A stretch of 64,000 nt of DNA, taken from assembly GCA_947165145.1 (NCBI GenBank), contig CAMUZG010000004.1:1-64000 (forward strand), in the 5' to 3' direction. The first letter of the stretch is position 1; every line of letters begins with the position of its first letter. Origin of the DNA: an uncultured Selenomonadales bacterium (GTDB taxonomy: Bacteria > Bacillota > Negativicutes > Selenomonadales > Selenomonadaceae). Positions 5,419-10,776 of the stretch are shown here, piece by piece. The translations under genes were made by a program, and so were the position numbers. The notes under the pieces were generated by a model. It did no database searches. It was not told where the DNA came from and was given only the letters and a program-made list of their open reading frames with translations.

Positions 5419-7461
5419 ATGGTCGTGGCAACCGATCCGATTGTTTCCGTCGTTGTGTCTTTGCGCAATGCGGAGCCTTACATAAAAAAATGCGTTGACA
5501 GTATCTTGGAACAGACACTGCGACACTTTGAAATTATTTTGGTGGACGATGCCTCGCGTGACGGCGGCTTTGAACTTTGTCAAAAACTTTACGGCGACAA
5601 TCCCAACATCAAAATCTTGCGGCACGAAAAATTTTCGGGCACGGCTGTCGCCCGCAATACCGGCATGAAGTTCGCGTCGGGAAAATACATCTGCTTCGTC
5701 AACGGCGAGGATTTTATTTTGCCGTACGCGCTGAACAAATTTTCCACTGCCGCCGAAAAATTTAACGCCGAGATCGTTCACGTGTCGAGTTGGTTTGAAT
5801 TCAATCAAGACGCCGTCGAGCCAGTGAGCAATGAAAATTTGTGGCTTCGGTGCGATGATTATTCGCGTGACGGCTTGCTGAAAAATAATTTTCTTTACAG
5901 GATGGATAATCATTGGCGCAACAGTGCGACGAATTCAAACGCGTGGCAGTGCTTTTGCCGAAAAGATTTTCTCGAACGTTGGGGCATAAATTTTTTGGAC
6001 ATCGCGGCGGCGGACGAGCCGTTTAATTTCGCGCTTTTCTGTTTGGCGGAACGCTATTACGTGCTGAATTCGCCGTTCTACGTCAAGCGCAAGCTGAATG
6101 ATTCGCCCGAAGATGCCGCGCAGAAATTTTTTGACGGGCTCCGCTCAATGATTGTCGGTTCGGCGTACATCGAAAAGTTTCTCGCCCAAGTTCCGCGTTT
6201 CCAGAATTACGATTTGTGGCGCGAAAATATTTTGTCGACGTTCTTCCAACGAGTCGCCGCGAATTACACCGCGCCGCATTACGAAAATCTTTTGACGAAT
6301 GCGAGCATGAACGCACTTGCCGACAAGACTTTGACGCCGTTTTTCCCGCAAGCGAAAAGTTTCGTGAAATATTTTTTCAACGCCGCGCACATCTTGAATC
6401 GTCAAGCCGAAACATTGACGCGAATCAACAACAATCTTTCCGAGCAGACACTGGCGATATTCTCACGCATGGAAATTTCGCGGAAAAAAATCGTCTTCGT
6501 GAATTGCGAAGGCAAAGGTTACGGTTGCAATCCGAAATACATTGCCGAAGAAATTTTGCGTCAAAAGTTGCCGTTCGATTTGGTTTGGCTCGTCAACGAC
6601 GCGAACGCTTCCATGCCCGACAAAATCCGCAAAGTTCGCTACGGCACGTTGGATTCGATGTTCGAGCTTGCGACCGCCAAAATCGTCGTGACGAACACGA
6701 ATAAAATTTTGCCCTTCCCGAACAAAAAGGACGGTCAATTTTTTATCATGACGTGGCACAGCGGCACTGACTTTCTGCGCGGCGAACAGAACGTTTCCTG
6801 CGCGACGATTGATTTGATGATGGCGAACACTCAAGAGCAATTCGACGACTTCAAGCAAATGTTCGATTTCGACGGCGAAATTCTCAAGTGCGGTCTGCCT
6901 CGCAACGACATTTTCTTCCGCCGTGACGACAAACTTGCCGCACGTGTCAAGAAAAAATTAAACGTCCCTCGCTTCAGCAAAATCGTCCTGTACACGCCGA
7001 TTTACGACGCTAACGCTTCACTAGACGCTAAAAAACTTCTCGACGTGCTCAAAGAAAAATTCGGCGGCAAATGGACACTCGTGACACGTTGCAAACTCGA
7101 CGGGGCGAACATCATTGACGCAACCGATTATCCCGACGAACAGAAATTGATTTTGATTGCCGACGCGATTGTCAGCGACTATTCTCCCGCGATTTTCGAC
7201 GGCATTTGTGCTGGCAAAAAAATTTTTCTCTACGCCGAGGACATTGACGACCGCACGAACGACGGCAGTCTCAAGCCGCTGTATTTCGAGTTGCCGTATA
7301 AAATTAATCGGAGCAGTGACGAACTTTTTGACGCTGTAAAAAATTTCAACACGACCGAACAGCAGGTCAAGAGATTCGTCGCCAAGGTCAAGCCCTTCAA
7401 CACGGGGAACGCCGCCGCCGATGTTGTTGCGATAATCCAAACCGTCATTGACAACACATGA
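5419..7461 (+). CDS. Two-domain transferase: family 2 glycosyltransferase + CDP-glycerol glycerophosphotransferase-like
   Basis: Residues 8-110 form a GT-A glycosyltransferase domain (IVSVVVSLRNAEPYIKKCVD, then LVDDASRDGG and ARNTG). The usual DSDD-type metal motif reads NGEDF here, so catalysis by this half is uncertain. A helical linker follows, and from about residue 355 a CDP-glycerol:polyglycerophosphate glycerophosphotransferase-like domain (KKIVFVNCEGKGYGCNPKYI, MTWHSGTDFLRGEQ, SDYSPAIFDG). Such domains add glycerol-phosphate or ribitol-phosphate units to teichoic-acid-like or capsular glycans, so a role in decorating an envelope polysaccharide is inferred. There is no signal peptide. 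The ATG has GGGAGGA upstream. The next gene follows after 18 bp and has a closely related N-terminal half, so the two probably arose by duplication. Confidence 0.82.
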   Translation: MVVATDPIVSVVVSLRNAEPYIKKCVDSILEQTLRHFEIILVDDASRDGGFELCQKLYGDNPNIKILRHEKFSGTAVARNTGMKFASGKYICFVNGEDFILPYALNKFSTAAEKFNAEIVHVSSWFEFNQDAVEPVSNENLWLRCDDYSRDGLLKNNFLYRMDNHWRNSATNSNAWQCFCRKDFLERWGINFLDIAAADEPFNFALFCLAERYYVLNSPFYVKRKLNDSPEDAAQKFFDGLRSMIVGSAYIEKFLAQVPRFQNYDLWRENILSTFFQRVAANYTAPHYENLLTNASMNALADKTLTPFFPQAKSFVKYFFNAAHILNRQAETLTRINNNLSEQTLAIFSRMEISRKKIVFVNCEGKGYGCNPKYIAEEILRQKLPFDLVWLVNDANASMPDKIRKVRYGTLDSMFELATAKIVVTNTNKILPFPNKKDGQFFIMTWHSGTDFLRGEQNVSCATIDLMMANTQEQFDDFKQMFDFDGEILKCGLPRNDIFFRRDDKLAARVKKKLNVPRFSKIVLYTPIYDANASLDAKKLLDVLKEKFGGKWTLVTRCKLDGANIIDATDYPDEQKLILIADAIVSDYSPAIFDGICAGKKIFLYAEDIDDRTNDGSLKPLYFELPYKINRSSDELFDAVKNFNTTEQQVKRFVAKVKPFNTGNAAADVVAIIQTVIDNT

Positions 7462-7479: not shown

Positions 7480-10400
7480 ATGGCAAAAAATCCGAGCGTT
7501 TCAGTTATCGTGCCGATGTACAACGTCGAGAAGTACATAAAATTTTGCGTCGACAGCGTGTTGAAGCAGACGTTCAAAGATTTTGAAGTTATCTTGGTGG
7601 ATGACGCGTCGCCCGACGATTGCTTTAAGCTTTGCAAAAAAATTTACGGCGACAACAAAAAAGTTCGCATCGTGCGCCACAAAGAAAATCTCGGACTCGG
7701 TGCCGCGCGAAATACCGGCATTAAAACTTCTCGCGGCAAATATGTTTACTTTCTCGACAGCGACGATTATCTTTTGCCCGACGCTTTGGAAAAATTTTTC
7801 AACGCCGCCGAAAAAAATAATGCTGATGTCGTTCACGCGGCTGGACGTTACGAACTCGTTCAGAACGACAACGATCCTGTCGGCAAAGGCACGTTAACTT
7901 TGCGCTGGGAAGGTTATTCGCAGGAAGGCTTTTTGCGGAACGACGTGAAATATCGTCTGGACAAGCACTGGAAAACTTACGACACACGCTCCAATGCCTG
8001 GCTGTGCTTTTGCCGAAAAGATTTTCTCGAAAAGAATCAGATTGAATTCCTGCCGATAATTTCCGAGGACGAGCCGTTCAGCTTCGCGCTGTTTTGTTTT
8101 GCCAAAAAATATTACATTTTGCACGAGGCATTTTACGTTCATCTGTTGCGCCCGGGTTCGATTATGCGCTCGTTCGAGGCGAAACGTTTCAAGCAGGGCG
8201 TCGAAAGTCTCGTGCTTGTCGGCGAGTACGTTGAAAAAATTTTGGACGAAAAAGTTCCGCGCTCCGACAAAAATGATTCGTGGCGCGACTCGTTCATGAT
8301 GGTGTTGTTCAGCAGATTCACCAACAATCACACCGCGCCATACTACGGTAGCGACAAAATCAAGCTCAGCGTTAACAATGCCGTCAAGAAAATTTTACAG
8401 CCGTCCTTCGGTGCTGATGAGCCGTTCGTAAGATTTTTCTTCAACTATTTTCATTTCTATCAAAAACGCTCAAAAGCCGTGACGTTGAAAGCTCAACAGC
8501 TCGCGCAACAAAATAAACAGCTACAAACTTCCATGACAATGTTCATCGACAAGCAACCCGCGCTTTTGAAATTCATGGCGACGATAAAATCCGACGCAAA
8601 GAAAATTTTTCTCATCGGCACGCCCGAACATGGCAACCTCGGCGACCAAGCGATTGCTCTGGGCGAATTGCGCGTTCTGCGAAATTATTTCCCGACTCAT
8701 GAAATTGTCGAGATTCCACGCAGTTTTTTCTTCGGCGAATTCGGCAAAGCATTCATGAAACTCGGCTGGGAAAAATATGTTCGTCGCACGGACGCGATAT
8801 TTTTGATTGGCGGCGGCAACTTCGGCAACTTGTGGCTCAACAACGAGAAATTACGCCGTTTCATCGTGAAAAAGTTCCCCGAAAATAAAATTGTCGTCTT
8901 CCCGCAAAGCATTCACTTCACAGCCGACGACGACGGACGCGCTCAGCTCGCGACCAGTCAAAAAATTTACAACGCGCACAAAGATTTGCACATCATGACG
9001 CGCGACAAGAACAGTTTCGATTTCGCACAGAAATTTTTCCCGCAGGTTAAAAGTTATCTTCTGCCCGACACTGTGACGGTTCTGCAGGGAATCACCGACG
9101 ACGTTGACATTGACCGCAAGGGCGTACTGTTCATTCTTCGCGGCGACAAAGAAAAAGTTCGCGACGAAGAAAAAATTCAAAGCCTGCAGAAATATCTTGC
9201 CGAGAAAAAAATTCCGTTCGAGACCGCCGACACCGTCCTCAACGAGAGCATCACTCCCGACAATCGCGAAGAAAAAGTTCGCGCCATGCTGATGAAGATT
9301 CGCGCAAGTAAGCTCGTCATCACGGACAGATTTCACGGCGTAATTTTCTCGTTCATCACGCGAACGCCGGTTCTTGCGTTCAAGTCGCTCGACACGAAAA
9401 TTTCTTCGGGCATTGCGTGGTTCAAAAATCTGCCGATGATTTTTTCCGCCGAAGACCGCACATTAGCCGACATGCAAAATTTCATCGACGAAAATTATTT
9501 TGCCGCCGCCGCAGAAGTCGAGACTTCCGACGCGCTCAACGTCAAATTCGACACTGACAGCCGCGAAAAATTTACTCGTGCGCTGAACAAAATTTTCGGC
9601 ACGAACAAAAATATTTTGCCGCCCGCCGTCCGCAGAATCAAACTCGACGCGATAAACATTGACAAACGCCGAATCACTTACAAGTACAGCGTCGACGGTA
9701 GCTTAAAGAAAGTTTTCAGCGGCGCAGAATTTTACGTCAGCTACAACGCGGACATTTCCCGCACGCCGAAAGATATTGCCGTGATTCCGTTCTTGTGCAA
9801 CGTCTTGCCGATTGCGTGGGTTTTTGACGCGGAAATTGTCGTTGACGAGTTGGACAACGATTTTTACGAACATCTTGCCGAAATCAAAAAAGGTTACGTC
9901 GACATGTACCCGCGCATAAAGTTCGGCGGGAAATTGACCGTCGGCAAGCTCATCAAGCACAACTACGAAGTCAGCGACGAGACCGCGACATTTTTCAGCG
10001 GCGGTGCAGATTCTTTCGACACGCTGATTGCTCACGCGGAAGAACATCCCACACTTATCACGCTGTTCGGCGCGGACGTGAAGTTGAGTGACATTGACGG
10101 TTGCAATCTCGTCCGACAACACGCGCGAGATATTGCCGCTCAATTCCAATGCAAAAATCTGTTAATCGCCTCGACGTTCCGCCGCGTCCTCAACGAAGGG
10201 CTGCTGTCAAAATACGTCCAACCGCTTGCAAATGACGGCTGGTGGCACGGCTTTCAACACGGCATCGGCATAATCAGTCACGTCGCGCCCTACGCCTACT
10301 TGCAACGACTCAAGCAAGTTTACATGGCGTCGAGTTTCAGCCGCGAATACACAGACTACACCTGCGCCTCGAACCCGACGATTGACAATCACGTTCGCGT

Positions 10401-10776
10401 TGGAAAATGCGTGACGATTCACGACGGCTACGACTTCAATCGCCAAGAAAAAATTCGGCGAATTTGCAACTACAGGCAGCGCACGGGCAAAACGATTCCG
10501 TTGCGAGTTTGTTGGCAGTCCGAAGGCGGCAAGAACTGTTGCGCTTGCGAAAAATGTTATCGGACGATCTGCGGCATTTTGGCGGAAGGTGACAACCCCG
10601 TTGATTACGGTTTCACGACGTACACGGCGGACACGTTGGAGAAAATGCGCGCGGATTTTCAAAAGCCCGACTTCAAATATCGTTCGCTGACGTGGCAGAT
10701 TATTCAAGCGCGATTCCGTGAGCGTCCCGAAAATTTGCCGAAAGAATTAGCGTGGCTTATGGAGATTAAATTCTAA
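7480..10776 (+). CDS. Three-domain protein: family 2 glycosyltransferase + polysaccharide pyruvyl transferase + PP-loop/Cys-cluster domain
   Basis: A 1098-residue fusion. Residues 5-110 are a canonical GT-A domain (SVIVPMYNVEKYIKFCVDSV, LVDDASPDD, FLDSDDYLLPDAL). About 368-665 match polysaccharide pyruvyl transferases (FLIGTPEHGNLGDQAIALGE, then a nucleotide-binding half with VITDRFHGVIFSF), which add pyruvate ketals to sugars. The C-terminal 380 residues contain a PP-loop-like SGGADSFDTL (840-849) and a cysteine cluster (C1011, C1020, C1021, C1023, C1026), suggesting an ATP-pyrophosphatase fold with a bound metal; its substrate is unknown. There is no signal peptide. ATG 7480 has GAGGTGATG upstream. 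It probably acts with the preceding gene on one envelope glycan. Confidence 0.8.
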   Translation: MAKNPSVSVIVPMYNVEKYIKFCVDSVLKQTFKDFEVILVDDASPDDCFKLCKKIYGDNKKVRIVRHKENLGLGAARNTGIKTSRGKYVYFLDSDDYLLPDALEKFFNAAEKNNADVVHAAGRYELVQNDNDPVGKGTLTLRWEGYSQEGFLRNDVKYRLDKHWKTYDTRSNAWLCFCRKDFLEKNQIEFLPIISEDEPFSFALFCFAKKYYILHEAFYVHLLRPGSIMRSFEAKRFKQGVESLVLVGEYVEKILDEKVPRSDKNDSWRDSFMMVLFSRFTNNHTAPYYGSDKIKLSVNNAVKKILQPSFGADEPFVRFFFNYFHFYQKRSKAVTLKAQQLAQQNKQLQTSMTMFIDKQPALLKFMATIKSDAKKIFLIGTPEHGNLGDQAIALGELRVLRNYFPTHEIVEIPRSFFFGEFGKAFMKLGWEKYVRRTDAIFLIGGGNFGNLWLNNEKLRRFIVKKFPENKIVVFPQSIHFTADDDGRAQLATSQKIYNAHKDLHIMTRDKNSFDFAQKFFPQVKSYLLPDTVTVLQGITDDVDIDRKGVLFILRGDKEKVRDEEKIQSLQKYLAEKKIPFETADTVLNESITPDNREEKVRAMLMKIRASKLVITDRFHGVIFSFITRTPVLAFKSLDTKISSGIAWFKNLPMIFSAEDRTLADMQNFIDENYFAAAAEVETSDALNVKFDTDSREKFTRALNKIFGTNKNILPPAVRRIKLDAINIDKRRITYKYSVDGSLKKVFSGAEFYVSYNADISRTPKDIAVIPFLCNVLPIAWVFDAEIVVDELDNDFYEHLAEIKKGYVDMYPRIKFGGKLTVGKLIKHNYEVSDETATFFSGGADSFDTLIAHAEEHPTLITLFGADVKLSDIDGCNLVRQHARDIAAQFQCKNLLIASTFRRVLNEGLLSKYVQPLANDGWWHGFQHGIGIISHVAPYAYLQRLKQVYMASSFSREYTDYTCASNPTIDNHVRVGKCVTIHDGYDFNRQEKIRRICNYRQRTGKTIPLRVCWQSEGGKNCCACEKCYRTICGILAEGDNPVDYGFTTYTADTLEKMRADFQKPDFKYRSLTWQIIQARFRERPENLPKELAWLMEIKF

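Follow-up and report, generated by a model that had tools for sequence, protein, structure and literature searches.

A QueC/QatC-like PP-loop domain fused to a glycosyltransferase and a polysaccharide pyruvyl transferase: a candidate amidating ligase of surface glycans

The 64,000-nucleotide stretch of an uncultured Selenomonadales bacterium analysed in this work (contig CAMUZG010000004.1 of assembly GCA_947165145.1, positions 1 to 64,000; hereafter, the window) encodes a protein in which sugar transfer and pyruvylation domains share one chain with a PP-loop/cysteine domain, and the question is what this last domain contributes. The ORF (7480..10776, + strand, 1098 aa) consists of a GT2 domain, a helical linker, a pyruvyl transferase and a QueC/QatC-like PP-loop domain. 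Its ATG start has a Shine-Dalgarno-like gaggtgatgaaATG in front and lies 18 nt from the preceding stop. The upstream gene (5419..7461, + strand, 680 aa), a fusion of GT2 (PF00535) with a CDP-glycerol glycerophosphotransferase-like region (PF04464, 1.7e-40), probably belongs to the same operon. A 1519-aa ORF of genome G210 (L118) carries a glycerophosphotransferase-like region ahead of GT2 and pyruvyl transferase in a single chain.

The GT2 domain (residues 8-144, 7501..7911, + strand) matched PF00535 at 7e-40 (137 bits vs. a cut-off of 23.3) and contains DDASPDD (residues 41-47) and the DxD-type DSDD (residues 93-96). The polysaccharide pyruvyl transferase (PPT) domain (residues 386-634, 8635..9381, + strand) matched PF04230 (PS_pyruv_trans) at 3e-29 (103 bits vs. 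a cut-off of 25.3), and the family motifs GNLGDQ (385-390) and DRFHG (616-620) are present. By these matches, the middle domain belongs fully to the polysaccharide pyruvyl transferases (CsaB, Pvg1, EpsO-like). The identical three-domain fusion was present in independent genomes (L002 and L003), indicating that it is not an assembly artefact. Purifying selection acts on the C-terminal domain (dN 0.197, dS 0.848, dN/dS approximately 0.23 against a 73%-identical relative, L002). The three-part chain described in the sequence-only reading is therefore real and well outside what chance would give: both Pfam domains and the PP-loop/cysteine domain are there and fused recurrently, and the last is conserved and under selection. 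The host genome, a 1.94 Mb MAG, has one copy of the C-terminal PP-loop domain and encodes a separate true QueC elsewhere.

Residues 708-1098 (approximately 380 aa), searched alone, had no match by sequence in Pfam, NCBIfam or the PDB, and the family of the C-terminal domain was resolved by profiles and folds alone. A Cystine-knot match (E 0.9) was dismissed as chance. Weak profile matches of the relatives were mostly to QueC, QatC or DUF6395, and the PDB profile matches had QatC and QueC on top, with the PP-loop and cysteine region collinear. In hhalign comparisons the family aligned with QueC (96.6% over 215 columns) from the PP-loop through the cysteine cluster; MnmA, LarE-size and GuaA profiles aligned around the PP-loop only (64 columns or fewer), and NASAT/WbuX over approximately 100-120 columns, stopping short of the cysteine site. 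Alignment A2 used in place of A1 gave no full-length QueC match, so that the profile evidence varies with alignment depth; two larger alignments did recover the full-length match. The AlphaFold (AF2) model of the domain had a pLDDT of 86.7 and a pTM of 0.86. Foldseek alone returned low TM-scores and, below rank 1, many unrelated Rossmann folds; VIA-align was therefore chosen for fold comparison. QatC was the best match (Z 14.5, 291 residues, rmsd 4.7 Å, model residues 9-391), followed by QueC (12.2), Cap9 (11.4) and other PP-loop families (approximately 9). A separate model of a distant family member ranked them alike (QatC 15.9, QueC 13.8, Cap9 13.4, the rest 10.6 or less). Together with the family alignments, these results place the domain at residues 720-1098 (9637..10773, + strand) and, as far as profiles and predicted folds can tell, it forms a separate branch, so far without a name, among the QueC/QatC-like PP-loop ATPases. 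Profile search and structure prediction thus gave a QueC-like profile and a QatC-like fold, and the suspected ATP pyrophosphatase has the PP-loop ATP-pyrophosphatase fold. The earlier impression that it matches no recognised family holds for the curated libraries, where it is unnamed, but profile and fold make it a divergent QueC/QatC-like family.

Conservation was counted over 36 diverse nonredundant homologues from bacteria and archaea. In the PP-loop (SGGADS, residues 840-845, 9997..10014, + strand) the Asp was kept in 36/36, the Gly in 35/36 and the Ser in 31/36; the contrary case, a non-catalytic domain lacking ATP-site residues, was not what we found. The cysteine cluster CWQSEGGKNCCACEKC (residues 1011-1026, 10510..10557, + strand) was first described as having five cysteines. 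Four of them (Cys 1011, 1020, 1023 and 1026; C-x8-C-x2-C-x2-C) form the QueC-type zinc motif and, as C-x8(9)-C-x2-C-x2-C, were present in all 36 homologues, but the second Cys of NCC is a stray residue that is not conserved. Downstream of the PP-loop, HDGYDFNRQEK (10420..10452, + strand) represents the family motif H[DH]GxxxxRxxK (Arg in 35/36, Lys in 32/36), and ASNPTIDN (10366..10389, + strand; family motif [WC][GA]SxPxxD) occupies the place of the QueC YPDC. The QueC motifs YxQxHxxE, VPxRN and YPDC, whose role in QueC, demonstrated or proposed, is to bind the deazaguanine (PMC13329287), were found in 0/36 homologues, which argues that the family is not QueC and that its substrate should differ.

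Homologues occurred in genomes of the same genus, a Clostridia MAG, Priestia, Pseudobutyrivibrio, haloarchaeal plasmids, Gemmobacter, Azospirillum, Gloeothece, Nostoc, Paracoccus and IMG/VR contigs, commonly as a stand-alone gene, and where annotated nearly all were labelled ‘hypothetical protein’. With the window domain as query (E ≤ 1e-3), 11 of the 380 genomes of the class gave matches, six of them long. In a broader phylum sample 3/398 genomes matched, and the phage collection searched contained no homologue of the C-terminal domain.

Within the window genus the domain was fused to GT2-PPT in the window, L002 and L003, while in L007 and L080 the chain was ended by the contig edge after the PPT. 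In L079 the PP-loop gene directly followed a 710-aa GT2-PPT protein, and the Clostridia MAG had the same split layout. Overall, a PPT was fused or no more than three genes away in ten lineages. Neighbouring PPT genes at that distance were seen in Priestia, Pseudobutyrivibrio (as pieces), Gemmobacter (two loci), Gloeothece (two species), Azospirillum, G245 and G084. Azospirillum PP-loop homologues were found on seven plasmids, and on plasmid p4 of Azospirillum brasilense (L090) PPT and PP-loop genes form a two-gene cassette outside any polysaccharide locus. Mapped onto the family tree, the PPT label requires 8 changes, and well-supported branches force at least 6 of these, indicating that the pairing recurs. 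Genomes of the window genus have approximately 1.9 PPT genes each, so that chance adjacency is well below 1% for a random gene and more inside polysaccharide loci, which are rich in PPT genes and thereby inflate the neighbourhood counts. The link to glycans that had been suspected from the fusion is borne out, in that fusion and neighbourhood tie the domain to pyruvylation in several phyla.

Sister species carried the same GT2-PPT chassis with a radical SAM C-terminus (L116:1131-4199 and L117:1022-4273) or with no added domain (L119 and L120), as expected for an optional tailoring module. A related-looking radical SAM protein is encoded by a separate gene immediately after the PPT-PP-loop fusion of L080 (3894-5018). 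The radical SAM neighbours in L080 and L019 were considered as QueE and rejected, the similarity being weak and partial.

No PPT or Kdo gene was seen alongside the haloarchaeal, Nostoc, G043, Paracoccus and viral-contig members, indicating that a ketal carboxylate is not the sole substrate unless the partners are located elsewhere. On the haloarchaeal plasmids (L018, L020, L096, L097 and L098), stand-alone homologues lay in glycan-type loci in which no PPT was detected, with alkaline phosphatase-like, deacetylase, Gfo/Idh/MocA, GNAT or ATP-grasp genes as neighbours.

A paralogous subfamily, mostly with SCGVDS instead of SGGxDS and named by no curated family, gave strong matches in 23 of the 66 genomes of the window genus (loci L083, L084, L086, L087, L088 and L141-L163). 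In all 23 genomes these paralogues adjoined kdsC, lpxL or both, in one to three tandem copies, and four loci had lost one flank to a contig end. The gene order was kdsB-kdsA-kdsD-kdsC-[PP-loop]-lpxL-lptC, then lptA, lptB and a lptF/G gene; the kds/lpt neighbours were assigned by NCBIfam and Pfam for one locus and for two lpt genes of a second, and elsewhere by profiles built from these loci. The Kdo linkage is limited to a single genus, where it may reflect inherited gene order; in the sister genus G245 the subfamily stands beside PPT instead of kds genes. Of two tandem paralogues in the kds operon of G186 (L084:7316-9902), one is interrupted by an in-frame TAA and the other by a frame change; they are either pseudogenes or assembly errors.

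QueC and Cap9 use ATP to activate a carboxylate and form a C-N bond (PMC13329287, PMC12424860, PMC13060819), and the nitrogen source of QueC is free ammonia (PMC13060819). By homology to these two enzymes we infer adenylation and C-N bond formation for the C-terminal domain, and amidation, one of the two chemistries first suggested, fits by analogy, as these nearest relatives activate carboxylates with amide or nitrile formation. We propose, with a probability of about one half, that the domain is an ATP-dependent adenylating ligase that amidates ketal-carbon carboxylates of a surface glycan: the pyruvate ketal in the window protein and Kdo in the paralogues. The identity of the carboxylate and the amine is our hypothesis. 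GT2 would add a sugar and PPT the acidic ketal, whose charge the PP-loop domain would then cap. The zinc-stabilised ligase would bind ATP through SGGADS, a carboxylate of the glycan or its precursor would be adenylated with release of PPi, and ammonia or an amine would attack the adenylate to give the amide, neutralising the carboxylate charge. No ammonia-producing partner was found in the loci examined. The favoured carboxylate would be the pyruvate ketal made by the fused PPT in the window protein, and the C1 carboxylate of Kdo in the paralogous subfamily.

Pyruvate ketals and Kdo both have a carboxylate on the ketal carbon. This shared feature would account for the association of a single family with both the pyruvylation and the Kdo pathways. 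More tentatively, and in our view doubtfully, QueC/QatC-like ligases of bacteria and archaea may make up a widespread family, as yet without a name, that is dedicated to capping the carboxylate of the ketal-type sugar acids (pyruvate ketals, Kdo) of surface glycans, giving neutral carboxamides or amide-linked decorations that are so far assigned to no enzyme.

The same chemistry might act on a different carboxylate, a uronic or other sugar acid of the polymer, with PPT and Kdo genes as mere co-members of acidic-glycan loci. The UDP-glucose dehydrogenase of the Priestia loci would suit this, as would the haloarchaeal loci without PPT and with oxidoreductase, epimerase, GNAT and ATP-grasp genes. 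However, the direct fusion to PPT, the isolated Azospirillum pair and the position right after kdsC make it unlikely. A protein- or glycan-conjugating ligase like QatC or Cap9, joining a small acid (e.g. a deazaguanine or an amino acid) to an amine, appears improbable: the closest fold is QatC, N-terminal extension included, and ATP-grasp and GNAT neighbours occur in several loci, but the CDG-binding motifs were missing in 36/36 homologues, the PPT, KdsC and LpxL partners whose sequences were read have no N-terminal MG motif of the QatB or CD-NTase kind, and no QatB-like or QueD/QueE-like neighbours were seen.

We rate sulfur transfer of the LarE/TtuA/MnmA kind, yielding a thiocarboxylate or thiosugar, as very unlikely. 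These enzymes share the common PP-loop fold (Z approximately 9) and four cysteines might in theory coordinate an Fe-S cluster, but the best matches belong to the zinc-containing, C-N-forming branch and the four conserved cysteines have the exact QueC spacing. Thiolation, the other chemistry first suggested, is thereby disfavoured, as the cysteines form a QueC-type zinc site and no additional Cys that could serve as a sulfur donor is conserved. Equally hard to credit is an accessory role without catalysis, in which the domain would bind nucleotide or position the glycan. In L003 (6001-7083) and L008 the PP-loop is decayed to SGDTDS, with internal deletions, while GT2 and PPT are retained with the fused PPT motif intact; this is apparently a decay of that module alone, and the domain seems dispensable there. 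Some GT2-PPT chassis that have no such domain, or a radical SAM domain instead, would also agree with an accessory role. By contrast, the ATP and metal residues are nearly invariant across archaea and bacteria and the domain is widespread as a stand-alone gene. The least probable alternative is an N-acetyl sugar amidotransferase (WbuX/WbpG/NASAT-like) converting an N-acetyl to an acetamidino group: NASATs likewise have a PP-loop and a tetracysteine zinc site and are encoded in surface-glycan loci (PMC10607449), but TIGR03573 gave no match, the hhalign alignment was partial, the cysteines are arranged differently and no HisH/HisF-like partner was seen.

The roles known for the QueC fold are nucleoside synthesis and anti-phage protein modification. 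The present family adds a further branch, one that works in the making of surface glycans and is linked to pyruvylation and the Kdo operon. If the carboxylates are amidated, charges used for S-layer anchoring, divalent-cation bridging and immune recognition could be enzymatically masked, and many ‘hypothetical protein’ genes would gain a testable function. Our literature search found the fusion of GT2, PPT and a QueC/QatC-like domain in no paper and, within its limits, none that deals with QueC-like enzymes in polysaccharides or with the amidation of pyruvate ketals or Kdo. The words polysaccharide and glyco- are absent from a 2026 survey of the PF06508 superfamily that includes the LPS enzyme WbpG.

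Compared with known systems, the C-terminal domain, which its gene context assigns to glycan synthesis, is by its defining features outside QueC, QatC and NASAT. With QueC (7-cyano-7-deazaguanine synthase, PF06508) it shares the SGGxDS PP-loop, the Rossmann-like core, the exact C(x)8CxxCxxC zinc spacing and a conserved Lys; unlike QueC, it has an N-terminal extension of approximately 120 residues, a further C-terminal extension and glycan loci, and PF06508 did not match the window domain (relatives reached at most 15.5 bits vs. a gathering cut-off of 22). With QatC of the QatABCD anti-phage system it shares a QueC core extended at both termini and a Pro-containing loop where YPDC sits. The QatC cysteine pattern, C(x)19CGxCxxRR, differs, the neighbours are mostly glycan genes rather than qatA/B/D, and the window domain had no NF041925/NCBIfam or PADLOC match; the QatC profile comparison is weak, being based on two QatC sequences. 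Cap9 of type IV CBASS has the QueC-like core (Z 11.4-13.4) and the Cys4 motif but is a 185-aa minimal protein retaining CDG-recognition motifs (PMC13329287). WbuX, WbpG and PseA (TIGR03573) are likewise PP-loop, tetracysteine zinc enzymes of surface-glycan loci, but their CxxC...[GN]xCxxC pattern (PMC10607449) is absent here, and cysteine order and profile differ. Unlike LarE and other sulfur-transfer PP-loop enzymes, the family conserves no catalytic or cluster Cys outside the QueC-type Cys4 site. DUF6395 (PF19932) shares the PP-loop, the C-x8-C-x2-C-x2-C motif, a Priestia plasmid region and a weak profile match, but is a separate Pfam family with another core sequence. The DUF6395 protein of the Priestia plasmid (L017:16129-17445) has the PP-loop SGGVDS and C-x8-C-x2-C-x2-C, and from these motifs DUF6395 is probably QueC-like as well.
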